Below are positions 26,270-40,540 of a DNA stretch of 64,000 nt, one piece after another. Where the stretch lies: NCBI RefSeq assembly GCF_900090195.1, contig NZ_LT607803.1, positions 4,614,229 through 4,678,228 on the forward strand, given 5' to 3'. The translations under genes were made by a program, and so were the position numbers. The first letter of the stretch is position 1; each line of letters opens with the position of its first letter. This stretch comes from Variovorax sp. HW608. GTDB lineage: Bacteria; Pseudomonadota; Gammaproteobacteria; Burkholderiales; Burkholderiaceae_C. The notes under the pieces were generated by a model. It saw only the letters and a list, made by a program, of their open reading frames with translations, searched no databases and had not been told where the DNA came from.

Positions 26270-27361
26270 ATGGCAGTTACACAAGAGGCGCTCGCAAGCG
26301 CACTCCAGGCGGTCCAGGACCCCAACACCGGCAAGGATTTCGTCAGCACCAAGGCGTTGAAGAACGTCCAGATCCAGGGCGGCGACGTCGCGTTCGACAT
26401 CGAGCTCGGCTACCCGGCCAAGAGCCAGGTGCCCGAGATCCGCAAGGCGCTCGTGGCGGCCGCGAAGGCGGTGCCGGGCGTGCAGAACGTCTCGGTCAAC
26501 GTCACGACCAAGGTCATCAGCCATGCGGTGCAGCGCGGCGTGCAGCTGATGCCCAACGTGAAGAACATCATCGCGGTCGCATCGGGCAAGGGCGGCGTCG
26601 GCAAGAGCACCACCGCGGTCAACCTCGCGCTCGCGCTCGCGGCCGAGGGGGCGAAGGTGGGCCTGCTCGACGCCGACATCTACGGCCCGAGCCAGCCGAT
26701 GATGCTGGGCATCGACCGCCGGCCCGAGAGCGAGGACGGCAAGACCATGGAGCCGCTGGAGAACCACGGTGTGCAGGTCATGTCGATCGGCTTCCTGGTC
26801 GACCAGGACGAGGCCATGATCTGGCGCGGCCCGATGGCCACGCAGGCGCTGGAGCAGCTGCTGCGCCAGACCAACTGGAAGGACCTCGACTACCTGATCG
26901 TCGACCTGCCGCCGGGCACCGGCGACATCCAGCTCACGCTCTCGCAGCGCGTGCCGATGACCGGCGCGGTGATCGTCACCACGCCGCAGGACATCGCGCT
27001 GCTCGACGCCAAGAAGGGCATCAAGATGTTCGAGAAGGTCGGCGTGCCGATCCTCGGCATCGTCGAGAACATGGCGGTGCACGTGTGCTCCAACTGCGGC
27101 CATGTCGAGCACATCTTCGGCGCCGAGGGCGGCAAGAAGATGGCCGAGCAGTACAAGATGGAGTACCTCGGCGCGCTGCCGCTGGACATCAACATCCGCC
27201 TGCAGGCCGACAGCGGCAAGCCGACGGTGGTGGCCGACCCCGACGGCGAGGTGGCAGGCATCTACAAGGCGGTCGCGCGCCGCGTCGCGGTGGGCATCGC
27301 CGAGAAGGCCAAGGACTTCTCGTCGAAATTCCCGACCATCACGATCTCCAAGAACACCTGA
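26270..27361 (+). CDS. apbC: Iron-sulfur cluster carrier ApbC/Mrp
   Basis: The 363-residue P-loop ATPase has an N-terminal DUF59/MIP18-like domain (about 1-85), the deviant Walker A motif ASGKGGVGKST near residue 105, Walker B (LIVDLPPGTGD) and the CxxC (CSNCGHVEHIF, near 271) that holds a bridging Fe-S cluster in the dimer. It delivers 4Fe-4S clusters to target enzymes. It is followed 16 bases later by the LysR gene at the edge of the formate island, where many Fe-S proteins are encoded. Confidence 0.95.
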   Translation: MAVTQEALASALQAVQDPNTGKDFVSTKALKNVQIQGGDVAFDIELGYPAKSQVPEIRKALVAAAKAVPGVQNVSVNVTTKVISHAVQRGVQLMPNVKNIIAVASGKGGVGKSTTAVNLALALAAEGAKVGLLDADIYGPSQPMMLGIDRRPESEDGKTMEPLENHGVQVMSIGFLVDQDEAMIWRGPMATQALEQLLRQTNWKDLDYLIVDLPPGTGDIQLTLSQRVPMTGAVIVTTPQDIALLDAKKGIKMFEKVGVPILGIVENMAVHVCSNCGHVEHIFGAEGGKKMAEQYKMEYLGALPLDINIRLQADSGKPTVVADPDGEVAGIYKAVARRVAVGIAEKAKDFSSKFPTITISKNT

Positions 27362-27377
27362 GGCCTGCAGCGCTCGC

Positions 27378-28322
27378 ATGAACCTGCTCGCCTCGATGCG
27401 CTATCTCGTCGCGCTCGACGAGCACCGCCATTTCGGCCGCGCCGCGCAGGCCTGCCACATCACTCAGCCGGCGCTGTCGAATGCGCTGCGCGCGCTGGAG
27501 GCCGAATACGGCGTGGTGATCGTGCGGCGCGGCCGCACCTACGTCGGGCTCACGCACGAAGGCGAACTCGTGCTGGCGACCGCGCAGCGCATGCTGCGCG
27601 AAAGCGAGGTGCTGCAGCAGGAACTGCGCAGCGAGGAGGGCAAGCCCTGCGGCCACCTGCGCATGGCGGCGGTGCCCACGGCCATCCCGGTGCTGGCGCG
27701 CTTCGCGGCGATGCTGCAGCAGCGGCATCCGGGCATCGTGCCGTCGGTGCTGACGATGAGCTCGCAGCAGCTCGAGACCGGTCTGGAAACCCTCTCGCTC
27801 GATCTGGCGCTGGGCTATATCGAGCGCATGCACCTTCGGGACGTGAAGCTCGATGCCTGGCCGCAGACCATCGAGCACTACTTCCTGCTGCGCCGCGCGA
27901 AGCGGCCGGCCGCGGACATGCTGCGCATCGGCAAGCCGATCACCTGGGCCGAGGCGGCCGAGCTGCCGCTGTGCCTGCTCACGCCGGACATGCACAACCG
28001 CGACATCATCGATCAGGCTTTCCGGGGCAGCGGAAAGACCGTTGCGCCGGCCATCGAGACGAACTCGGTGCTGACGCTGGTGCTCGGCGTGGTGGCAGGC
28101 AATGTCTGCAGCGTGCTGCCGGGCGCCATGGTGGCCGCCGTGCGCAGCCATCGCGAGCTCGAAGCGCTGCCGCTCGCCGAGCCCGACGTGAAGACGCCCA
28201 TCGGCTTCATGACGCAGCAGGGGGTGCGGCCGTCGCGCGCCCTGGAGGCGGCGCTGGCGCTCTTGCAGACGCCCGAGTGGCGCGAGCAGGTCGAGCAGCA
28301 CAGCGGGGCGCTGGGCGCCTGA
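27378..28322 (+). CDS. LysR-type regulator, probable FdsR
   Basis: The 314-residue LysR-type regulator has an N-terminal winged helix (FGRAAQACHITQPALSNALRALEAEYG) and an effector-binding domain with MAAVPTAIPVLARFAAML and TNSVLTLVLGVVAGNVCSVLPG. It directly precedes the formate transporter and the fds operon, both of which carry the same 33-bp upstream motif, so it is the best candidate for their formate-responsive regulator, by analogy with FdsR of Cupriavidus. It is only 16 bases from apbC and has no evident promoter of its own. Confidence 0.82.
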   Translation: MNLLASMRYLVALDEHRHFGRAAQACHITQPALSNALRALEAEYGVVIVRRGRTYVGLTHEGELVLATAQRMLRESEVLQQELRSEEGKPCGHLRMAAVPTAIPVLARFAAMLQQRHPGIVPSVLTMSSQQLETGLETLSLDLALGYIERMHLRDVKLDAWPQTIEHYFLLRRAKRPAADMLRIGKPITWAEAAELPLCLLTPDMHNRDIIDQAFRGSGKTVAPAIETNSVLTLVLGVVAGNVCSVLPGAMVAAVRSHRELEALPLAEPDVKTPIGFMTQQGVRPSRALEAALALLQTPEWREQVEQHSGALGA

Positions 28323-28366: not shown

Positions 28367-28383
28367 ACGTCCATTTATTTATT

Positions 28384-28416
28384 GAATCGTCATATAGAGC
28401 GATTTTATTTGACGAT
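28384..28416 (+). promoter_or_regulatory. Probable LysR operator upstream of the formate transporter
   Basis: The 33-base element GAATCG-N9-GCGAT-N3-ATTTGACGAT contains the dyad ATCG-N10-CGAT and a third CGAT half-site 13 bases downstream. An element with the same spacing and the same outer blocks lies at 30243-30275 before the fds operon. Its end is 73 bases before the transporter ATG. The multi-half-site layout fits LysR-type regulators; the binding protein is inferred to be the adjacent one. Confidence 0.7.
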
Positions 28417-28488
28417 TTGTAACATTCGCACTGACACTCCGCCGGCCCCACAGAGGGCGCGCTCAAGACCACAACAGGAGTTCAATCG

Positions 28489-30183
28489 ATGACAGGTTCA
28501 ACTGCAGGCGTCCTCGGCGGGGACGGCATCGGCGTCGCCGTACCGGAACCGGGCTTTCTCGACAAGGAACGGATCATCGCGGGGGCGGGCTTCAACCGCT
28601 GGCTGGTCCCGCCGGCAGCGCTGGCGATCCACCTGTGCATCGGCATGGCCTACGGCTTCTCGGTGTTCTGGCTGCCGCTGTCGAAGTCGCTGTCCACCGC
28701 CGGCACCGGCGCCAAGGCCTGTCCGAACGACATGAGCTTTTTCGCCGAGCTCTTCGCCACCGGCTGCGACTGGCGCATTGCCACGCTGGGCTGGATGTAC
28801 ACGCTGTTCTTCGTCTTCCTCGGTTGCGCCGCGGCGCTCTGGGGCGGCTGGCTCGAGCGCGCCGGTCCGCGCAAGGCCGGCGTGGTGTCGGCGCTGTGCT
28901 GGTGCGGCGGCATGCTGATCTCGGCGCTGGGCATTCACCTGCACCAGTTCTGGATGATGATCGTCGGCTCCGGCGTGATCGGCGGCATCGGGCTGGGGCT
29001 CGGCTACATCTCGCCGGTGAGCACGCTGATCAAGTGGTTCCCCGACCGGCGCGGCATGGCGACCGGCATGGCGATCATGGGCTTCGGCGGCGGCGCGATG
29101 ATCGGCTCGCCGCTTGCGGTGGACCTGATGAAGGCCTTCTCCAGCCCCACGGACGTCGGCGTGATGCAGACCTTCATCGTGATGGCGCTGGTCTACTTCG
29201 TCTTCATGATGGGCGGTGCGCTCGGCTACCGCGTGCCGGCGACCGGCTGGAAGCCCGAGGGCTGGACCCCGCCGCCCGCGCAGACCAGCAACGCGATGAT
29301 CACGCAGCACCACGTGCACGTGAAGAAGGTGTGGGGCATCCCGCAGTTCTGGCTCGTGTGGATGGTGCTCACCATGAACGTGAGCGCGGGCATCGGCGTG
29401 ATCGGCATGGCCAGCCCGATGCTGCAGGAGGTCTTCGGCGGCGCGCTGATCGACGTGCCGAAGAAGTTCGGCGAACTCGACAAGACTCAGCTCGCCGCCA
29501 TCGCCGCGGTAGCCGGCGGCTTCACCGCGCTGTTGTCGCTTTTCAATATCGGCGGCCGCTTCTTCTGGGCGAGCCTGTCGGACAAGCTCGGCCGCAAGCT
29601 CACCTACACCGTCTTCTTCCTGCTCGGCGGCGCGCTGTACTTCAGCGTGCCGACCTCGGCGGCCATCGGCAGCAAGCTGATGTTCGTCGGTGCCTTCTGC
29701 ATCATCCTGTCGATGTACGGCGGCGGTTTCTCGACGGTGCCGGCTTACCTCGCAGACCTGTTCGGCGCGCAGATGGTCGGCGCGATCCACGGCCGCCTGC
29801 TCACCGCATGGGCCACGGCCGGCATCCTGGGCCCGGTGGTCGTCAACTACATGCGGGAATACCAGCTCGGGCTTGGCATCCCGCGCGAGCAGGTTTACAA
29901 CCAGACCATGTACATCCTGGTCGGCATGCTGGTCATCGGGCTCATCTGCAACCTGCTGGTGCGTCCGGTCGCCGACAAGCACTTCATGACCGAAGAGGAG
30001 TTGGCGCACGAGAAGAAGCTCGCACACGAGAGGGCCGCGGCGGCCGAGGTAGGCTCCGGCGCGGTGCGCGCAAGCGATGCGGTGAGCCCGGCCGTGGCCA
30101 TCATGGCCTGGCTGGCGGTGGGCATTCCGCTGGCCTGGGGCGTGTATCGCACGCTGGCACCCGTTGCGAAATTCTTCAACTAG
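28489..30183 (+). CDS. OFA-family MFS transporter (oxalate/formate type)
   Basis: The 564-residue inner-membrane protein has 12 predicted helices plus an extra C-terminal one. Family features include a long loop after helix 1 (LPLSKSLSTAGTGAKACP), WGGWLERAGPRKAGVVSALCWCGG, GYISPVSTLIKWFPDRRGMATGMAIMGFGGGAMIG and GGRFFWASLSDKLGRKLTY. OFA members exchange oxalate and formate or carry other small carboxylates. Position between the LysR gene and formate dehydrogenase points to formate. A motif shared with the fds promoter lies upstream, and CAGGAG precedes the ATG. Confidence 0.85.
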   Translation: MTGSTAGVLGGDGIGVAVPEPGFLDKERIIAGAGFNRWLVPPAALAIHLCIGMAYGFSVFWLPLSKSLSTAGTGAKACPNDMSFFAELFATGCDWRIATLGWMYTLFFVFLGCAAALWGGWLERAGPRKAGVVSALCWCGGMLISALGIHLHQFWMMIVGSGVIGGIGLGLGYISPVSTLIKWFPDRRGMATGMAIMGFGGGAMIGSPLAVDLMKAFSSPTDVGVMQTFIVMALVYFVFMMGGALGYRVPATGWKPEGWTPPPAQTSNAMITQHHVHVKKVWGIPQFWLVWMVLTMNVSAGIGVIGMASPMLQEVFGGALIDVPKKFGELDKTQLAAIAAVAGGFTALLSLFNIGGRFFWASLSDKLGRKLTYTVFFLLGGALYFSVPTSAAIGSKLMFVGAFCIILSMYGGGFSTVPAYLADLFGAQMVGAIHGRLLTAWATAGILGPVVVNYMREYQLGLGIPREQVYNQTMYILVGMLVIGLICNLLVRPVADKHFMTEEELAHEKKLAHERAAAAEVGSGAVRASDAVSPAVAIMAWLAVGIPLAWGVYRTLAPVAKFFN

Positions 30184-30242
30184 CCACGTGAGAGACGGGC
30201 GCCCGCGAGGCGGCGGATGGCGCCCGGCTCCATTTCTTTTCT

Positions 30243-30275
30243 GAATCGCTGCATTTCGCGATCCAATTTGACGAT
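30243..30275 (+). promoter_or_regulatory. Probable LysR operator upstream of fdsGB
   Basis: GAATCG-N9-GCGAT-N3-ATTTGACGAT: the same 33-base layout as at 28384-28416, with identical GAATCG, GCGAT and ATTTGACGAT blocks but diverged spacers. The last base is about 100 bases before the fds start codon. Conservation of blocks but not of spacers argues for protein binding and not for simple duplication. Confidence 0.7.
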
Positions 30276-30378
30276 CCGCGCCGGGGCCGCCCACACTCGA
30301 CGAGTCTGGAGAAGGGCTTCAGGCTGAAACGAACGATGAGACGGCGCCACCCGGGGCAGGCGCCCGAGGCCGAGGCAA

Positions 30379-32202
30379 ATGCAATACCCAGGCACAGAAC
30401 AAATCAGGGAGGTGGCCATTGCCACTCCCGACCAGCTGCGCGAGCGCATCCGGCGCAAGAGCAAGCTCAAGGGGCGCCAGCCTGAAGAGGCCTCCCTGCA
30501 GCAGGTGAGCGAACTGATCGGCCCGGCGCCGGCCGACGGCTATCCGCGCGATCTGCTGATCGAGTTCCTGCACCGGATCAACGACGCGCACGGTTGCCTG
30601 CGCGACCATCATCTGGTCGCTCTCGCGAAGCTCATGAACATCCCGATGGCGGAGGTGTTCGAGGTCGCGAGCTTCTATCACCACTTCGAGATCGTGCGCG
30701 GTGGCCAGGACGCGCCGGGCCTCACGGTGCGCGTGTGCGAGAGCCTCGCATGCGAGATGGCCGGCGCGAAGGACCTGCTCTCCCGGCTGCCCGCGCTGCT
30801 GGGTCAGGCCGGACGCGGCGACGTGCGCGTGATTCCCGCGCCCTGCATCGGGCGCTGCGAGCAGGCGCCGGCGGTGGCGGTGCACCAGCGGGCGGTGCCG
30901 TGCGCGACCGCGGAGAAGGTGCTGGCCACCGTTCTTTCCGGCGAATCGCTGCAGGCCGGACCGCCCGCCCAGAGGTCCGTCGTGCGCTTCGAGCCCGCCG
31001 AGCTGGCACAGCAAAGCGTCTCGCCGCCGGCGGGGCACATCGAGGTGCAGCCGGCGTATACCGACTACGCCACCTACCGCGCGAAAGGCGGCTACCAGCT
31101 TGCCGCCGCCCTGGTGGGCAACGAGAAGGAAGCGGAGACGGTGATCCGCGCGATGGAGAATTCGGGCCTGCGCGGCTTGGGCGGCGCGGGATTCCCGACC
31201 GGGCGCAAGTGGCGCATCGTGCGCGACCAGCCGGCGCCCAAGCTCATGGCGGTCAACATCGACGAGGGCGAGCCCGGCACCTTCAAGGACCGCGTCTACC
31301 TCGAGCGCGATCCGCATCGTTTCCTCGAAGGCGTGCTGGTCGCCGCGCGCATCGTCGGCATCGACGCCTGCTACCTCTACCTGCGCGACGAATACCACGA
31401 CTGCCGCGAACTCCTCGAGGCGGAGCTCGCCAGGCTGCGCGCCGATCCGCCATGCCCGCTGCCGCACATCGAACTGCGGCGCGGCGCGGGCGCCTACATC
31501 TGCGGCGAAGAGTCCGCGATGATCGAAAGCATCGAGGGCAAGCGCGGCGAGCCGCGCATGCGGCCGCCCTACATCGCGCAGGTGGGCCTGTTCGGCCGGC
31601 CGACGCTGGAACACAACTTCGAGACGCTCTACTGGGTGCGCGACATCGTGCAGAAGGGGCCGCAGTGGTTCAGCGCCTTCGGCCGCCATGGCCGCAAGGG
31701 GCTGCGCAGCTTCAGCGTCAGCGGGCGCGTGAAGGCACCGGGCGTCAAGCTCGCGCCGGCGGGCATCACGGTGCAGGAACTGATCGACGAATACTGCGGC
31801 GGCATGCAGGACGGCCACACGCTCTATGCCTACCTGCCGGGCGGCGCCTCGGGCGGCATCCTGCCCGCGCGCATGAACGACATCCCGCTGGACTTCGACA
31901 CGCTGCAGCCGCACGGCTGCTTCATCGGCTCCGCGGCGGTGATGGTGCTGAGCCAGCATGACCGGGCGCGCGACGCCGCGCTCAACGTGATGCGCTTCTT
32001 CGAGCACGAGAGCTGCGGCCAGTGCACGCCGTGCCGCGTCGGCACCGCGAAGGCGGCGGCGCTGATGGAAGCGCCGGCGTGGGACAACGCCACGCTCGAA
32101 GACCTCGCTCAGGTCATGGGCGATGCATCCATTTGCGGATTGGGGCAGGCTGCGCCCAACCCCATCCGCTGCATCCAGAAGTACTTCCCGCAGGAAATAT
32201 GA
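30379..32202 (+). CDS. NAD+-formate dehydrogenase, fused gamma-beta subunit (FdsG-FdsB)
   Basis: The 607-residue protein joins two diaphorase subunits that are usually separate. Residues about 40-195 are NuoE/FdsG-like, with the 2Fe-2S ligands C120, C125, C156 and C160. Residues about 235-600 are NuoF/FdsB-like: NADH-binding GLGGAGFPTGRKW, FMN-binding INIDEGEPGTFKDR, GAGAYICGEESAMIESIEGKRGEPR, and a 4Fe-4S site (ESCGQCTPCRVG plus a later Cys). It passes electrons from FdsA to NAD+ in the cytoplasm. A GTG about 11 codons in, with GGGAGG before it, is an alternative start. The stop overlaps an in-frame fdsA ATG (ATGA). Confidence 0.9.
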   Translation: MQYPGTEQIREVAIATPDQLRERIRRKSKLKGRQPEEASLQQVSELIGPAPADGYPRDLLIEFLHRINDAHGCLRDHHLVALAKLMNIPMAEVFEVASFYHHFEIVRGGQDAPGLTVRVCESLACEMAGAKDLLSRLPALLGQAGRGDVRVIPAPCIGRCEQAPAVAVHQRAVPCATAEKVLATVLSGESLQAGPPAQRSVVRFEPAELAQQSVSPPAGHIEVQPAYTDYATYRAKGGYQLAAALVGNEKEAETVIRAMENSGLRGLGGAGFPTGRKWRIVRDQPAPKLMAVNIDEGEPGTFKDRVYLERDPHRFLEGVLVAARIVGIDACYLYLRDEYHDCRELLEAELARLRADPPCPLPHIELRRGAGAYICGEESAMIESIEGKRGEPRMRPPYIAQVGLFGRPTLEHNFETLYWVRDIVQKGPQWFSAFGRHGRKGLRSFSVSGRVKAPGVKLAPAGITVQELIDEYCGGMQDGHTLYAYLPGGASGGILPARMNDIPLDFDTLQPHGCFIGSAAVMVLSQHDRARDAALNVMRFFEHESCGQCTPCRVGTAKAAALMEAPAWDNATLEDLAQVMGDASICGLGQAAPNPIRCIQKYFPQEI

Positions 32203-32203
32203 G

Positions 32204-32290
32204 ACCACCCCCAGCCTCGCCCACTTCGTGTGGCTCTGCACCCCCTCAAGGGGGCGCACCCCTGCGGCCCGGCGGAGCCGGTTCCGCGGG
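32204..32290 (+). repeat. Dispersed intergenic repeat, copy 2
   Basis: Immediately after the fdsGB stop, blocks ACCCCCAGCCTCG, CTTCGTGTG, CACCCCCTCAAGGGGGCGC and GCGGCCCGGCGG match, in order, the reverse complement of the repeat at 240-322. It is translated in frame with FdsA if the ATG at 32199 is used, giving a Pro/Gly/Ala-rich segment unlike any FdsA domain. It is therefore probably an inserted spacer element. Confidence 0.65.
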
Positions 32291-32306
32291 TGCCCTGGAC
32301 TGGGCT

Positions 32307-35171
32307 GTGCCAGTCTCATCGATCGAGTTCCAGCTCGATGGCAGGACCGTGGAGGCCTTCGAAGGCGAGACCATCCTCGCGGCCGCGAAGCGCCACGGCG
32401 TCGACATTCCACATCTCTGCTTCAAGGAAGGGCTGCGGCCCGACGGCAACTGCCGCGCCTGCGTGGTCGAGCTGAAGGGCGAACGCACGCTCGCGCCGAG
32501 TTGCTGCCGCACCGTTTCGGCCGGCATGGAAGTGCAGGCCGCGAGCGAGCGCGCCCTCAAGAGCCAGAAGATGGTCGTCGAGATGCTGCTCTCGGACATG
32601 CCCGACGCGGGCTACAAGTGGATCGGCGACGATGCCACGCGGCAGCATGGCGAGCTCAGCGAATGGGCGGCCAAGCTCGATGTCGCGGTGCGGCCCGAGC
32701 TCAAGGCCCTGCGTCGCGAGCAGCCTGCACCCGATGTGTCGCACCCGGCGATGGCGGTGAATCTGGACGCCTGCATCCAGTGCAACCGCTGCGTGCGCGC
32801 CTGCCGCGAGGAGCAGGTCAACGACGTGATCGGCTACGCACTGCGCGGACAGGATTCGAAGATCGTCTTCGACCTCGACGACCCGATGGGCGACAGCACC
32901 TGCGTGGCCTGCGGCGAATGCGTGCAGGCCTGCCCGACGGGCGCGCTGATGCCCAAGAGCCACATCGGCTCGCAGCAGGTGGACCGCAAGGTCGACTCGG
33001 TGTGCCCGTTCTGCGGCGTCGGCTGCCTGATCACCTACAACGTCAAGGACGAGAAGATCGTCAGCGTCGACGGCCGCGACGGCCCGGCCAACCACAGCCG
33101 GCTGTGCGTCAAGGGCCGCTTCGGCTTCGACTACGCGCACCATCCGCAGCGCCTCACCAAGCCGCTGATCCGCAAGCCCGGCGTGCCCAAGACCTGCGAC
33201 GACGCGCCGCGCCCCGGCGACTGGAGCGAGGCCTTCCGCGAGGCGAGCTGGGAAGAGGCACTGGCGCTCGCTGCCGGCAAGCTCAGGGGCCTGCGCGATA
33301 CGCACGGCCGCAAGGCGCTGGCGGGCTTCGGCTCGGCCAAGGGCAGCAACGAGGAGGCGTATCTGTTCCAGAAGCTGGTGCGCACCGGCTTCGGCAGCAA
33401 CAACGTCGACCACTGCACGCGGCTGTGCCATGCGTCCAGCGTGGCGGCGCTGCTCGAAGGCGTGGGTTCGGGCGCGGTCAGCAACCAGGTCAACGATGTC
33501 GAGCATGCGGACCTGATCTTCGTGATCGGCTCCAACCCGACTGCGAACCACCCGGTCGCCGCCACCTGGATGAAGAACGCGGCCAGGCGCGGCACGAAGA
33601 TCGTGCTGGCCGACCCGCGCCGCACCGAGATCAGCAAGCATGCCTGGCGCACGCTGCAGTTCAAGGCCGACACCGATGTGGCGATGCTCAATGCGCTGAT
33701 CCATGCGGTGATCGACGAAGGGCTGGTCGACGAGGCCTTCATCCGCGATCGCGCCAGCAACTTCGAGGCGCTGCGCGAGAACGTCAAGGGCTACAGCCCC
33801 GAGGTGATGGCGCCGATCTGCGGCATCCCGGCCGAGACGCTGCGCGAGGTCGCGCGCGCCTTCGCGACCGCCAAGGGCGCGATGGTCCTCTGGGGCATGG
33901 GCGTGAGCCAGCATGTGCACGGCACCGACAACGCGCGCTGCCTGATCGCGCTGGTCACCGTCACCGGCCAGATCGGCAAGCCCGGCTCGGGCCTGCATCC
34001 GCTGCGCGGCCAGAACAACGTGCAGGGCGCGAGCGATGCGGGGCTGATCCCGATGATGTTCCCCAACTACCAGCGGGTCGACAACGCCGGCGCGCATGCG
34101 TGGTTCGAGAACTTCTGGGGCATGCCGCTGGACGACCAGCCCGGCTACACCGTGGTCGAGATCATGCACAAGGCGCTCGCGCCGGACGACGATCCGCACA
34201 AGGTGCGCGGCATGTACATCATGGGCGAGAACCCGGCCATGAGCGACCCGGACCTGAACCATGCGCGCCACGCCTTGGCGAGCCTGGAGCACCTCGTGGT
34301 GCAGGACATCTTCATGACCGAGACCGCCTGGCTCGCCGACGTGGTGCTGCCCGCGAGCGCCTGGCCCGAGAAGACCGGCACCGTGAGCAACACCGACCGC
34401 ATGGTGCAGCTCGGCAAGCGGGCGCTCGATCCGCCGGGCGATGCCAAGCCCGACCTCTGGATCATCCAGCAGATCGCAAAGCGCATGGGGCTGGCCTGGG
34501 ACTACGAGGGCGAGGAATCCGGCGTCGCGGCGGTCTACGAGGAGATGCGGCAGGCGATGCATGCGGCGATCAGCGGCATCAGCTGGGAGCGCCTGCAGCG
34601 CGAATCGAGCGTGACCTACCCGTGCCTCTCCGAGGACGATCCGGGCCAGCCGATCGTCTTCGTCGAGACCTTCCCGACCGCCGACGGCCGTGTGAAGCTG
34701 GTGCCGGCCGACATCATCCCGGCGGCCGAGCGGCCCGATGCCGACTACCCGTACGTGCTGATCACCGGGCGCCAGCTCGAACACTGGCACACCGGCAGCA
34801 TGACGCGCCGCGCCACGGTGCTCGATGCGCTGGAGCCGATGGCGACCGCGTCGATGAACCAGGCCGACCTCGAGGCGATGGGGCTTGCGCCCGGCGACGT
34901 GATCACGATCCGCTCGCGGCGCGGCGAAGTGGCGATCCATGTGCGCCGCGACGACGGCACGCCGCACGGCGCGGTGTTCGTGCCCTTCGCGTACTACGAG
35001 GCGGCGGCGAACCTCATGACCAACGCGGCGCTCGACCCCTTCGGCAAGATCCCGGAGTTCAAGTACTGCGCGGTGAAGATCGAGCGCGGCGGCGTGCCGG
35101 TGCCGGCGGCGGGTTACGGAACGGGCGCGACGGGGGACAATCGACCCCAGTCATGGACAGCCTCGACCTGA
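32307..35171 (+). CDS. fdsA: NAD+-formate dehydrogenase alpha subunit (molybdenum)
   Basis: The 954-residue catalytic subunit oxidises formate to CO2 at a bis-MGD molybdenum site. It has an N-terminal 2Fe-2S domain (C38, C49, C52 and the CC pair near 67), a Cys-rich NuoG-like region, two 4Fe-4S clusters (CIQCNRCVRACREE and CVACGECVQACPTGA), the FdhF-type 4Fe-4S motif CPFCGVGC, and molybdopterin domains. The Mo ligand is C374 in HCTRLCHAS, encoded by TGC, so no selenocysteine is used. The GTG at 32307 fits FdsA length; the in-frame ATG at 32199 would add 36 repeat-encoded residues. The last 19 bases overlap the next LysR gene. fdsC and fdsD do not follow. Confidence 0.93.
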   Translation: MPVSSIEFQLDGRTVEAFEGETILAAAKRHGVDIPHLCFKEGLRPDGNCRACVVELKGERTLAPSCCRTVSAGMEVQAASERALKSQKMVVEMLLSDMPDAGYKWIGDDATRQHGELSEWAAKLDVAVRPELKALRREQPAPDVSHPAMAVNLDACIQCNRCVRACREEQVNDVIGYALRGQDSKIVFDLDDPMGDSTCVACGECVQACPTGALMPKSHIGSQQVDRKVDSVCPFCGVGCLITYNVKDEKIVSVDGRDGPANHSRLCVKGRFGFDYAHHPQRLTKPLIRKPGVPKTCDDAPRPGDWSEAFREASWEEALALAAGKLRGLRDTHGRKALAGFGSAKGSNEEAYLFQKLVRTGFGSNNVDHCTRLCHASSVAALLEGVGSGAVSNQVNDVEHADLIFVIGSNPTANHPVAATWMKNAARRGTKIVLADPRRTEISKHAWRTLQFKADTDVAMLNALIHAVIDEGLVDEAFIRDRASNFEALRENVKGYSPEVMAPICGIPAETLREVARAFATAKGAMVLWGMGVSQHVHGTDNARCLIALVTVTGQIGKPGSGLHPLRGQNNVQGASDAGLIPMMFPNYQRVDNAGAHAWFENFWGMPLDDQPGYTVVEIMHKALAPDDDPHKVRGMYIMGENPAMSDPDLNHARHALASLEHLVVQDIFMTETAWLADVVLPASAWPEKTGTVSNTDRMVQLGKRALDPPGDAKPDLWIIQQIAKRMGLAWDYEGEESGVAAVYEEMRQAMHAAISGISWERLQRESSVTYPCLSEDDPGQPIVFVETFPTADGRVKLVPADIIPAAERPDADYPYVLITGRQLEHWHTGSMTRRATVLDALEPMATASMNQADLEAMGLAPGDVITIRSRRGEVAIHVRRDDGTPHGAVFVPFAYYEAAANLMTNAALDPFGKIPEFKYCAVKIERGGVPVPAAGYGTGATGDNRPQSWTAST

Positions 35172-36055
35172 TCAGAACCTTTCGCGAAGTCGCCTCCCAC
35201 GGCAGCTTTTCCCGCGCCGCCAGCAAGCTCGACGTCTCCAAGGCCACCGTCAGCAAGTACATCGCCGAGCTCGAATCGCGGCTCGGCGTGCGGCTGCTCA
35301 ACCGCTCCACCCGCGCGGTGAGCCTCACCGATGCCGGCTCGCTGCTGCTCGAGCGCAGCAAGCCGATGATGGAGATGTTCGAGGACACCCAGGCCGAGGT
35401 CCAGGAGCACGCGAGCCGGCCGACCGGCCGCCTGCGCCTGTCGGCGCCGCTCGGCGCCGGGCAGGGCGACCTGCCGAAGCTGATCGGCGAGTTCATGGGC
35501 CACTACCCCGATGTCAGCATCAGCCTGCACCTGACCAACCGCAACATCGACATGGCGGAGGAAGGCATCGACCTGTCGCTGCACTTCGGGCCGGTCGAGG
35601 ACGAGAACCTGATCGTGCGCAAGCTCGCCCGCCGCAGCCTCGTGGTCTGCGCCTCGCCGGTGTACTGGAAGAAGCACGGCAAGCCGGCGCATCCGGGCGA
35701 GCTCGCGACCCACGACGCGCTCACGCACTCGCGGCTGGGCCTGCATCCGCAATGGCGCTTCGAGGTCGACGGCAAGCCCTTCGACGTGGCGGTGAAGTCG
35801 CGCATGGACGCGACCGAGGCCGCGCCGTTGATCCAGGTCGCGATGCAGGGCTTCGGCGTGATCTACCTGCCCGAGATGCTGGTGCAGCCGCACATCGATC
35901 ATGGCGAGCTGGTGCCGGTGCTGCAGGCCTACTCGCGCAACGACATGTGGCTGTCGGCCGCCTACCTCCAGCGGCGCCACAACAGCGCGGCCTTGCGCGC
36001 GTTTCTCGACTTCCTGGAGATGAGCTTCCGCAAGCAGGACAAGTCAGGCCGCTGA
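35153..36055 (+). CDS. LysR-type regulator (CrgA/DhcR-like)
   Basis: The 300-residue regulator begins MDSLDLIRTFREVASHGSFSRAASKLDVSKATVSKYIAELESRLG, a typical winged helix, followed by an effector domain with the PTGRLRLSAPLGAG motif of the large CrgA-like group. Its ATG lies inside the 3' end of fdsA in another frame, so it is likely cotranscribed with fdsGBA. A role in formate control is possible, but the separate LysR at 27378 is the better candidate for the shared operators. Confidence 0.87.
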   Translation: MDSLDLIRTFREVASHGSFSRAASKLDVSKATVSKYIAELESRLGVRLLNRSTRAVSLTDAGSLLLERSKPMMEMFEDTQAEVQEHASRPTGRLRLSAPLGAGQGDLPKLIGEFMGHYPDVSISLHLTNRNIDMAEEGIDLSLHFGPVEDENLIVRKLARRSLVVCASPVYWKKHGKPAHPGELATHDALTHSRLGLHPQWRFEVDGKPFDVAVKSRMDATEAAPLIQVAMQGFGVIYLPEMLVQPHIDHGELVPVLQAYSRNDMWLSAAYLQRRHNSAALRAFLDFLEMSFRKQDKSGR

Positions 36056-37877: not shown

Positions 37878-38493
37878 AGGCTTCTTCGACCGCTGGTCGC
37901 GCCGCAAGCAGCAGGCGCGCAGCGGGGAGGTGGCGGACGAACCGCAGAAGCCGCCGGCGCAACCGGTGCCGGTGGAGCGGCCGGCCGCTGCGCCGGCCGT
38001 CGAGCCCGAAACCACTGGCAGCCCACTGCCCGTCGAAGCCGTCGAGGCGCCGCCGCTCACCCTGGAGGACGTGAAGGCCCTGCGCGTCGACTCGGACTTC
38101 CGGCCCTTCGTGGCGCAGAACGTGGCGCCCGAGGTGCGCAACGCCGCCTTCCGGAAGCTCTTCTCCGATCCGCATTTCAACGTCATGGACGGCCTGGACA
38201 CCTACATCGACGACTACTCCAAACCTTCGCCGCTGCCCGAGGGCGCCTTGCGCCAGATGGCCAGCGCCAAGTTCCTGAAGCTCTTCGACGAAGACCCCGC
38301 GCATCCCGAAGAAACTCCCGAGGGTGATGGATTGGTCGGCGTGGCAAAGTCCGGACATTCCGGGGATCTTCCCAGCCCGCCGGTGGCCGATGCGCCACCT
38401 GCCAGCCCAAAGACTGATGACCACGACGCTGATCTGCGACTGCAACCAGACGATGCCCCTCGAGCCGAAGACGCTCGGGACCGCGCTGACTGA
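37870..38493 (+). CDS. DUF3306 formate-dehydrogenase accessory protein
   Basis: The 207-residue protein starts MSEGFFDRWSRRKQQAR, a DUF3306 hallmark, followed by a Pro/Ala-rich linker, then the conserved core (LTLEDVKALRVDSDFRPFVAQNVAPEVRNAAFRKLFSDPHFNVMDGLDTYIDDYS). It has no signal or membrane segment. It overlaps both neighbours: DUF3305 upstream and the ferredoxin gene downstream (about 77 bases). Function unknown; genomic context ties it to formate dehydrogenase. Confidence 0.88.
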   Translation: MSEGFFDRWSRRKQQARSGEVADEPQKPPAQPVPVERPAAAPAVEPETTGSPLPVEAVEAPPLTLEDVKALRVDSDFRPFVAQNVAPEVRNAAFRKLFSDPHFNVMDGLDTYIDDYSKPSPLPEGALRQMASAKFLKLFDEDPAHPEETPEGDGLVGVAKSGHSGDLPSPPVADAPPASPKTDDHDADLRLQPDDAPRAEDARDRAD

Positions 38494-40540
38494 ATCCCTC
38501 CCACTGCATTCGACGCTCTGCCGTCGCGAGGCGCCGGCCTTCCAGCGGGCGATCCAGTCCGGTGACGACGTGGTGGTCGCGTGCACGCAGGAAAAAAGAC
38601 TCTTCGGAGAACTCGCGCAGCAGACGCCCGGAGCGAGCTCCCCGATCCGCTTCGTCAACATCCGCGAGACCGGCGGCTGGAGCCGCGACGCGAAGAGCGC
38701 GATGCCGAAGATCGCCGCGCTGCTGGCGGCCGCCGGGCTGCCCGAGCCCGATCCGGTCTCGACCGTGAGCTATGCCAGCCAGGGCCGGCTGCTGATCGTC
38801 GGGCCCCTCGATGCGGCCGAGCAGGCTGCCGCGCTGCTGGCCGATGCGCTCGAGGTGACGATCTTTTCGCGCGGGCCCGGCGTCGCCGGCGGCGCGCAGG
38901 AGCGGCGCTGGCCCGTGATCGCCGGACGCATCGATGCGCTGGCGGGGTGGCTCGGCGCGTTCAAGCTGCAGTGGACGCAGGACAACCCGATCGACCTCGA
39001 CCTGTGCACGCGCTGCAATGCCTGCTTGAGCGCCTGCCCCGAGCAGGCCATCGGGCTCGACTACCAGATCGACACCGTGAAGTGCACCTCGCACCGGGAT
39101 TGCGAGCGCGCCTGCGCCGTGGCGGGCGCGATCCGCTTCGATCGCGCGCGCGAGCCGCAGGACGGCGCCTTCGACCTCGTGCTCGATCTCGGCACGGCGC
39201 CGCTCATCGACTGGCACGCGCCGCCGCAAGGCTACTTCCATCTTGCGGGCGGCATGTCGCATCCGAAGGCCGCGCAGACCTTGATGCGGCTGCGCGAACT
39301 GGTCGGTGAATTCGAGAAGCCGAAGTTCTTCGACTACAAGCAGAAGCTCTGCGCGCACAGCCGCAACGAAGTGGTCGGCTGCAACGCCTGCATCGAGGTG
39401 TGCTCGGCCCACGCGGTCAGCAGTGACAAGGAGCGCCAGCGCATCGTCGTCAACCCGAACCTCTGCGTCGGCTGCGGTGCCTGCACGACGGTGTGCCCGA
39501 CCGGTGCGCTCGCCTACACCTACCCGCGCACGCCGGACCAGGGGCTCAAGCTGCGCACGCTGCTCGCGACCTACGCCGCTGCCGGCGGACGCGACGCGAC
39601 GCTGCTGCTGCACAGCGAGGAGGGCGGGCGCGCGCTGGTCGAACAGCTCGGCCGCGCGGCGCAGCTTCGCAAGGCGCATGGCGTTCCAGCGAACGTGATT
39701 CCGGTGGCGCTCTTCCATGCGGCGAGCACCGGCATCGACCTCTGGCTGAGCGCGGTGGCGTTCGGCGCCTCGCAGGTGTGCGTGCTGCTGACCGGCGAAG
39801 AAGCGCCGCAGTACGTCGCGGCCATGAAGAAGCAGGCGGAGATCGCCCAGGCGCTGTTGCATGGCCTGGGCTATACCGGCACGCACTTCAGGCTCATCGA
39901 AGCGGCAACGCCGGCTGCGCTCGACACCGCGCTGGCCGGCTTGCGCGAGACCCGGCAGATCGTGCCGTCCAGGGCCGCGCGCTTCGCGGTCGGTGCGGAA
40001 AAGCGCAGCACGCTCGAGCTGGCGCTGGATCACCTGATGGACGAGTCGCCCGCGCTGAAGGCGGCGGCCGATGCGCCGCTGGCGGTCCCGTTGCCGGCGG
40101 GCGCGCCCTTCGGCGCCATCGCGGTCGACAAGGACAAGTGCACCCTGTGCCTCGCCTGCGTCAGCGCCTGTCCCGCGGCCGCGCTGCAGGACAACCGGGA
40201 TTCGCCGCAGCTGCGCTTCATCGAGAAGAACTGCGTCCAGTGCGGACTCTGCGAAACCACCTGCCCCGAGGATGCGATCGAACTCGTGCCGCGCCTCTTG
40301 GCCTCGCCCGCGCGCAGGCAGCCCGCAGTGCTCAACGAGGCCAGGCCGTGGGCCTGCATCCGCTGCGGCAAGCCCTTCGGCACGCAGAAGGCCATCGAGG
40401 CGATGCTGGTCAAGCTGGCCGGCCACGCAATGTTCCAGGGCGAGGCGCTGGAGCGCCTCAAGATGTGCAGCGACTGCCGGGTCATCGACCTCTACAGCGC
40501 CCAGGACGAAATCAAGATCACCAGGATCCCGCCGCAATGA
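38417..40540 (+). CDS. Polyferredoxin-like 4Fe-4S protein of the fdh operon
   Basis: The 707-residue protein carries many cluster motifs: CTRCNACLSACPEQA, a CTSHRDCERAC variant, CNACIEVCSAHA, CVGCGACTTVCPTGA, CTLCLACVSACPAAA and CVQCGLCETTCPEDA, plus C-terminal CIRCGKPFG and CSDCR. Between them lies a domain without cysteines (about 400-560, with VIPVALFHAASTGIDLWL) resembling CoB-CoM heterodisulfide reductase-type delta folds. No signal or membrane segment is seen, so it is cytoplasmic. It probably moves electrons or helps Fe-S/Mo maturation of the exported enzyme. The ATG at 38417 overlaps DUF3306, and the stop overlaps the TorD gene. Confidence 0.8.
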   Translation: MTTTLICDCNQTMPLEPKTLGTALTESLPLHSTLCRREAPAFQRAIQSGDDVVVACTQEKRLFGELAQQTPGASSPIRFVNIRETGGWSRDAKSAMPKIAALLAAAGLPEPDPVSTVSYASQGRLLIVGPLDAAEQAAALLADALEVTIFSRGPGVAGGAQERRWPVIAGRIDALAGWLGAFKLQWTQDNPIDLDLCTRCNACLSACPEQAIGLDYQIDTVKCTSHRDCERACAVAGAIRFDRAREPQDGAFDLVLDLGTAPLIDWHAPPQGYFHLAGGMSHPKAAQTLMRLRELVGEFEKPKFFDYKQKLCAHSRNEVVGCNACIEVCSAHAVSSDKERQRIVVNPNLCVGCGACTTVCPTGALAYTYPRTPDQGLKLRTLLATYAAAGGRDATLLLHSEEGGRALVEQLGRAAQLRKAHGVPANVIPVALFHAASTGIDLWLSAVAFGASQVCVLLTGEEAPQYVAAMKKQAEIAQALLHGLGYTGTHFRLIEAATPAALDTALAGLRETRQIVPSRAARFAVGAEKRSTLELALDHLMDESPALKAAADAPLAVPLPAGAPFGAIAVDKDKCTLCLACVSACPAAALQDNRDSPQLRFIEKNCVQCGLCETTCPEDAIELVPRLLASPARRQPAVLNEARPWACIRCGKPFGTQKAIEAMLVKLAGHAMFQGEALERLKMCSDCRVIDLYSAQDEIKITRIPPQ

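Follow-up and report, generated by a model that had tools for sequence, protein, structure and literature searches.

Activator promoters of the LysR-type transcriptional regulators (LTTRs) share a layout in which the recognition site lies near -65 and the activation site near -35, and many LTTR genes are divergent from their target. Formate metabolism is also governed by the FhlA/sigma-54 regulon, which is recognized by a -24/-12 promoter and FhlA sites. A regulator, FdsR, stands beside the formate dehydrogenase genes of Cupriavidus necator and answers to formate in that host; its gene, fdsR, was reportedly described by Oh and Bowien in 1999. The fds promoter of C. necator is formate-inducible, with a 4.5-fold induction and a Km of 130 uM (PMC7057948). 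The T-n11-A sequence is named as the LysR consensus motif (PMC5002191). In the open-access literature, no description of a motif for a LysR formate regulon was found. The regulon presented in this section is well supported and apparently undescribed, and the kind of LTTR promoter on which it relies is familiar.

The window, that is the whole stretch of 64,000 nucleotides from Variovorax sp. HW608 analysed here, contains in order mrp/apbC, a LysR gene, promoter 1, an MFS transporter gene, promoter 2, the genes for a fused gamma-beta subunit and an alpha subunit of formate dehydrogenase, and a second LysR gene. The two promoters carry copies of a 33-bp element. Both elements are very probably promoter copies of a single formate regulon bound by the LysR protein encoded at 27378; this binding, the tetramer, the activation, formate as effector and the transcription start are inferred. 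The features of the locus are listed below in window coordinates.

27378..28322, + strand: LysR-type regulator of 314 aa with HTH_1 and LysR_substrate domains (Pfam), the proposed binder
28373..28387, + strand: promoter 1 recognition box ATTTATTTATTGAAT (T-N11-A), centre placed at about -65
28384..28416, + strand: element copy 1, ahead of the gene for the MFS transporter; a similar transporter promoter occurs in Variovorax sp. YR216 (L036)
28402..28414, + strand: promoter 1 activation box, overlapping the -35 hexamer TTGACG (28409-28414); its left half is degenerate in this copy
28433..28438, + strand: promoter 1 putative -10, GACACT, 18 bp after TTGACG
28489..30183, + strand: MFS transporter (PF07690) of 564 aa, placed in the OFA-like (oxalate/formate) group, substrate assigned by context
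30232..30246, + strand: promoter 2 recognition box ATTTCTTTTCTGAAT (T-N11-A), from the window letters and the conserved sites
30243..30275, + strand: element copy 2, ahead of the gene for the fused FDH1 beta/gamma subunit; a close match occurs in genome G749
30261..30273, + strand: promoter 2 activation box, overlapping the -35 hexamer TTGACG (30268-30273)
30292..30297, + strand: promoter 2 putative -10, CACACT, 18 bp after TTGACG
30379..32202, + strand: fused FDH1-type gamma-beta subunit, 607 aa (best PDB match 7e5z_B; Pfam)
about 32166..35171, + strand: FDH1-type alpha subunit (molybdopterin/tungstopterin formate dehydrogenase; 1249.5 bits to PDB 7e5z_A; TIGR01591 above cut-off)
about 35180-36055: second LysR (LysR2), directly behind fdh1A

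Both copies of the element lie on the + strand and have GAATCG, GCGAT and ATTTGACGAT in common at equal spacing, just as the first-pass annotation had described them. Its distances of 73 and about 100 bases to the respective starts also hold, the ATG at 28489 lying 73 positions past the end of copy 1 and the ATG at 30379 lying 104 past copy 2. A 20-base test pattern, GAATCG-N10-CGAT-N3-ATTTGACGAT, gave 2 matches in the window with up to 3 mismatches, versus 0 in 100 dinucleotide shuffles. Exact matches to this pattern are restricted to these two places in the whole 7,733,565-bp Variovorax genome, and the backwards control pattern has no exact match genome-wide. The blocks within the 33 bp are real, but the likeness is wider than first proposed and reaches further on both sides: CCATTT.TTT..TGAATCG is found in both copies at the 5' end, and TTGACG-N18-(G/C)ACACT at the 3' end. 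Such alike copies, 1.86 kb apart, could be taken for a recent local duplication in the strain with little regulatory meaning. This is extremely improbable, given that the copies differ outside the shared blocks, and the duplication was rejected by eye because each copy is more like another promoter: copy 1 is nearer the transporter promoter of YR216 (L036) and copy 2 nearer the fdh1B promoter of G749.

The architecture of the element was examined in 190 loci, comprising 80 named loci around LysR relatives and 110 from further same-family genomes (7 of the 190 repeat another locus). The pool, in which the three sites of the HW608 genome are included, yielded 55 non-redundant sites at 85% identity or 52 at 80%. 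The recurring unit reads CATT[TC]a-N4-TTGAATCG-N3-CATGt-N2-CGATTCAATTTGACG-N17/18-nACACT, where CGATTCAATTTGACG represents the second dyad together with the -35 box; in relatives, a dyad TCAA-T-TTGA covers the -35. T-N11-A is present in 52/52 non-redundant sites and ATT...AAT in 51/52. The upstream ATT-N9-AAT, far 5' of the -35, is among the most conserved columns, and the conservation of its ATT is independent of selection because the search pattern spanned only GAATCG to GACG. When 20 offsets were tried, the best-scoring hexamer (nACACT) was located 17 or 18 bp past TTGACG in 50 of the 52 sites. The centres of the two boxes are 28 bp apart, at about -65 and -37 from a start placed by means of the putative -10; with the start put there, the geometry is compatible with the LTTR layout.

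In its build, the conserved unit resembles an activator promoter of the LysR type, composed of an ATT-N9-AAT recognition box and an activation box fused to the -35. It shares with the described LTTR activator promoters two dyads whose centres are 28 bp apart, T-N11-A on the upstream side and one overlapping the -35 on the downstream side, as well as a protein with HTH_1 and LysR_substrate domains. It differs from them in that the regulator gene is located upstream and co-directional, behind mrp (apbC), instead of being divergent, and in that formate genes of three kinds stand behind a single type of element. Unlike the FhlA/sigma-54 formate regulon, the unit has a -35/-10-like arrangement. The first-pass annotation had noted ATCG-N10-CGAT plus a third CGAT in both copies. 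Both are indeed there, but the pair is only the inner half of the unit and takes one half-site from each box, the right one of the first and the left one of the second. Conservation does not extend to the third CGAT, which was rejected as a part of the operator; relatives have, for example, GACGCT, GACGGC, GACGCC or GACCGG at this place. The blocks could also represent a conserved strong core promoter with some chance similarity and no operator, and TTGACG with its 17-18 bp spacer does belong to the conserved unit. The far upstream position of ATT-N9-AAT, one of the best-conserved parts, and the fact that motif presence tracks the LysR gene nevertheless make a bare core promoter very improbable.

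The closest named relatives of this LysR are from Variovorax strains, with 95% identity for YR216 (L036). Its start is situated 16 bases behind mrp/apbC (window 26270-27378) and a mrp match was found at most 1 kb upstream of LysR in 137 of the 190 loci, so that the regulator may be transcribed together with this iron-sulfur carrier gene. Further along the window, a long open reading frame (38324-40540) near the formate dehydrogenase genes contains several cysteine motifs resembling those of 4Fe-4S clusters.

The first-pass annotation had proposed a scan of related genomes, and relatives do keep the blocks in front of the same genes. The training set of a matrix comprised 12 non-redundant sites, taken from the 94 loci (87 once repeats are removed) with a LysR identity of at least 66%. 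The held-out set came from the 96 loci of lower identity, 90 of which were scored over some 400 bases covering the LysR end and what follows it; in the other 6, no formate gene lay within the stretch. With the threshold at 22, just above the highest control score of 21.9, the site was detected in 58/90 held-out loci versus 0/90 reverse complements and 0/450 mononucleotide shuffles; with the threshold at 10, the figures were 75/90 versus 16/90 and 1/450. Detection at 22 reached 53/71 when the first formate gene was less than 700 bases away and 5/19 when it was at least 700 away, so that of the 32 loci below the threshold 14 belong to these 19. The single held-out match upstream of LysR (L252) is a slicing artefact, LysR starting there at the contig edge. 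All 7 repeated loci were in the training part and their removal altered no held-out count.

A promoter scan by gene class, which is not independent since the training sites of its matrix came from these very loci, gave scores of at least 10 for 79/92 transporter, 61/90 fused-subunit, 18/41 FdhF and 7/33 Fds-type genes; the controls gave 0/660 dinucleotide shuffles, 0/74 mrp promoters and 1/330 reverse complements. Many of the non-scoring genes are close behind a transporter gene and may be read with it. The transporter-promoter element is kept with 1 mismatch in L036 (LysR 95%), and its second half is lost in L037-L040 (LysR 88-91%), where the scores fall to -25 to -30. L039 and genome G704 retain a site before FdhF.

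The relaxed pattern has 5 places in the HW608 genome, and its control none. A third site with 1 mismatch was found 1.6 Mb away from those of the window, at C1:6273418-6273448 (L151:9419). With its first base 61 bases from the ATG, it precedes a gene encoding an oxidoreductase of the FdhF/YdeP family, which is followed by fdhD; both genes are above the curated cut-offs (969.2 versus 582.15 for TIGR01701, and 174 versus 140.9 for the fdhD model TIGR00129). Since about 30 bases separate the end of the site from this ATG, translation starting there would imply a very short leader. The regulon had been proposed to consist of two promoters. Its formate-gene promoters are indeed conserved in relatives, but at least three promoters are present in this genome. 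The remaining two relaxed matches have 2 and 3 mismatches and no clear relation to the regulon. A weak match, GATCGAATCATATGATGATTGAATTCGACG at C1:6752614-6752643 (L152), has its own internal palindrome AATCATATGATGATT, and the gene near it on the other strand looks by eye like a 2-hydroxyacid dehydrogenase gene. It was set aside as a regulon site.

The distribution of the motif was compared with that of the LysR gene, scored as present at E 1e-60. Among 399 same-family genomes, LysR is present in 116 and the motif, at up to 3 mismatches, in 65; the backwards control had no match in these genomes among the matches listed. The proportion of motif genomes that also contain LysR rises with stringency, from 46/65 at up to 3 mismatches to 29/31 at up to 2 and 12/12 at up to 1, and 33 of the 79 same-family matches follow LysR on its own strand at a distance of at most 500 bases. 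Conversely, 70 of the 116 LysR-positive genomes have no site within 3 mismatches of the strict pattern and 19 of the 65 motif-positive genomes have no detected LysR. A 3-mismatch match, AAATCGCACG...TTGACG, recurs in some same-family genomes without LysR, for example G526, G565 and G492. In Variovorax, LysR is found in 92/101 genomes and the motif in 77/101 (the backwards control matched once, in G782): the motif is present in 77/92 LysR-positive versus 0/9 LysR-negative genomes (Fisher 6e-7), and 15 of the 92 have no site within 3 mismatches. Of the 77 genomes with the motif, at least four (G695, G709, G743 and G754) have only a 3-mismatch match with no formate gene beside it; some 3-mismatch matches are due to chance or unrelated. 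Sites unlinked to LysR also exist, namely the third site of HW608 and that of G725, whose LysR is on another contig.

This strong co-occurrence agrees with the choice made in the first-pass annotation, and the LysR at 27378 is the best candidate for the binder. Another regulator could in principle occupy the element, for example a global regulator or LysR2 at 35180, whose gene follows fdh1A both here and in 8 of the 80 named loci. This alternative is decidedly improbable. LysR2 relatives (E 1e-100, many only 55-79% identical) are present in 98/101 Variovorax genomes, including 8 of the 9 without the first LysR and the motif, and copies of at least 83% identity in 13/101. Motif presence tracks the first LysR and not LysR2, as illustrated by G701, which encodes a LysR2 with 89% identity but has neither the first LysR nor the motif. 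On the basis of this co-occurrence, LysR2 was rejected as the binder.

The genes behind these promoters required some reassignment. What had been called fdsGB on first inspection is a fused beta/gamma subunit of the FDH1 type, with 665.6 bits to 7e5z_B versus 248.8 to the FdsB of C. necator (6vw7_B). The enzyme of the window is of the FDH1 type, its fused gamma-beta and alpha subunits both being closest to 7e5z and having their counterparts in the tungsten enzyme FDH1 (fdh1AB) of Methylorubrum extorquens; the fused subunit is closer to that enzyme than to the Fds of C. necator. The label of formate transporter, which had been given from the sequence, rests on context, because the cut-offs of the oxalate/formate antiporter models were not reached (106.6 versus 335 for TIGR04259 and 133.7 versus 374.85 for TIGR00890); the NF047966 tail domain is above its cut-off.

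A formate gene is located downstream of LysR within the available stretch in 176 of the 190 loci, the other 14, some of them with short stretches, having none. These genes encode a transporter, a fused FDH1-type subunit, FdhF or Fds-type proteins. The latter are only about 32-37% like those of the window, and the Fds-type beta subunit of L183 scores 856.6 bits against FdsB of C. necator (6vw7_B). In 28 of the 30 Variovorax loci retrieved, the gene immediately behind the site, and read in its direction, is that of the transporter, fdh1B or fdhF, and the other 2 have none of these; 13 further motif stretches, 5 of which come from loci already among the 30, comprise 9 with a formate gene and 4 without. 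In G749, LysR is followed directly by a promoter much like copy 2 and then by fdh1B, and no transporter match lies in that interval. In L036-L040, the transporter is followed by fdh1B after about 50-60 bases, with no second promoter. Given these two arrangements, LysR-promoter-fdh1B and transporter-fdh1B, the window can be described as combining both.

These target genes bear directly on the effector. The same LysR could respond to another signal, such as oxalate, lactate, another carboxylate or the redox state, and the formate genes would then be controlled indirectly. Two observations favor such an effector: the transporter is nearer to the L-lactate MFS model (286.2 for a cut-off of 320) than to the oxalate/formate models, and the best PDB relative of the regulator is OxyR (68 bits). 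The genes downstream across the loci nevertheless encode formate dehydrogenases of the FDH1 and Fds types, plus the FdhF/YdeP type, and many of these loci have no transporter match between LysR and the dehydrogenase. A different effector is for these reasons possible but unlikely.

Formate is most likely the inducer. In the proposed mechanism, LysR, probably as a tetramer, would occupy the ATT-N9-AAT recognition box at about -65 and the activation box over the -35 at about -37. In response to the inducer, it would recruit RNA polymerase to a weak promoter (TTGACG, 17-18 bp, nACACT). The regulon would include three promoters or more: those of the transporter gene and of FDH1 (fdh1BA), and one for the FdhF/YdeP-type oxidoreductase and fdhD. 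The motif, its layout, conservation and gene context, and its co-occurrence with LysR were established computationally; read together, these sequence data point to a real and conserved operator-promoter of the LysR type and make a formate regulon probable.

The comparison was extended to other families. In an order sample of 300 genomes, 77 possess an Fds-type fdsB. Up to about 4 kb before fdsG (1.1 kb in one locus), tblastn at E 1e-5 detected no relative of this LysR in 20 loci of other families, taken from 19 of the 77 genomes. The divergent regulators before fdsG in L264 and L265 contain a PBP_like domain, accompanied by HTH_1 in L264, and a divergent regulator was also seen by eye in L266, L267, L271, L275, L276, L280 and L283. 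Words resembling ATATGC/CATATTG recur in the fdsG intergenic regions with a divergent regulator and may be the operator of that regulator, and an OFA-like transporter was seen by eye before fdsG in L269, L273, L277 and L281. L265 is a Cupriavidus-like locus of genome G158, the FdsG of which scores 257.8 bits against that of C. necator (6vw7_A). Its divergent PBP_like regulator (PF12727), presumably the published FdsR, has no meaningful BLAST similarity to the window LysR. Like FdsR, the window regulator lies beside formate dehydrogenase genes, but its identification as the FdsR orthologue is not supported, no relative of this LysR preceding fdsG in the 20 loci and the G158 regulator being unrelated.

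Relatives do exist outside the family. Genome G275, from another family of the order sample, contains one with 44% identity. Among 60 matched records, annotated plasmids of Azospirillum ramasamyi, Sinorhizobium meliloti and Rhizobium sp. were examined, and in these three alphaproteobacterial loci a related LysR (35-41% identical) lies directly upstream of, and co-directional with, fdsG, fdsB, fdsA and fdhD. These loci differ from the window by their separate gamma and beta genes and by the lack of a transporter between LysR and fdsG. On the S. meliloti plasmid, an ATAG-N7-CTAT box, the sole match to the pattern used, is centred 28 bp before TTGACC, versus 29 bp in the window, even if its half-site letters are unlike those of the window; the Azospirillum and Rhizobium intergenic regions were read by eye.

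It is about an even chance that these loci reflect an unnamed formate-sensing LTTR common to alpha- and betaproteobacteria, with a stable operator beneath which the enzymes (FDH1, Fds or FdhF/YdeP-FdhD, the last of unclear function, with or without an OFA-like transporter) have been exchanged. The presence of the same operator before true formate dehydrogenases and YdeP/FdhF-family oxidoreductases would provide a functional lead for the latter, and the YdeP-like oxidoreductases of this group would, if the regulon is confirmed, be assigned to formate metabolism. For soil bacteria of the Comamonadaceae type, a confirmed regulon would also put a concrete operator and regulator behind formate use, and it would supply a candidate part for a formate biosensor. 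The exchange of enzymes under a single regulator-operator pair, if true, would represent a regulatory element that outlives the genes it controls.
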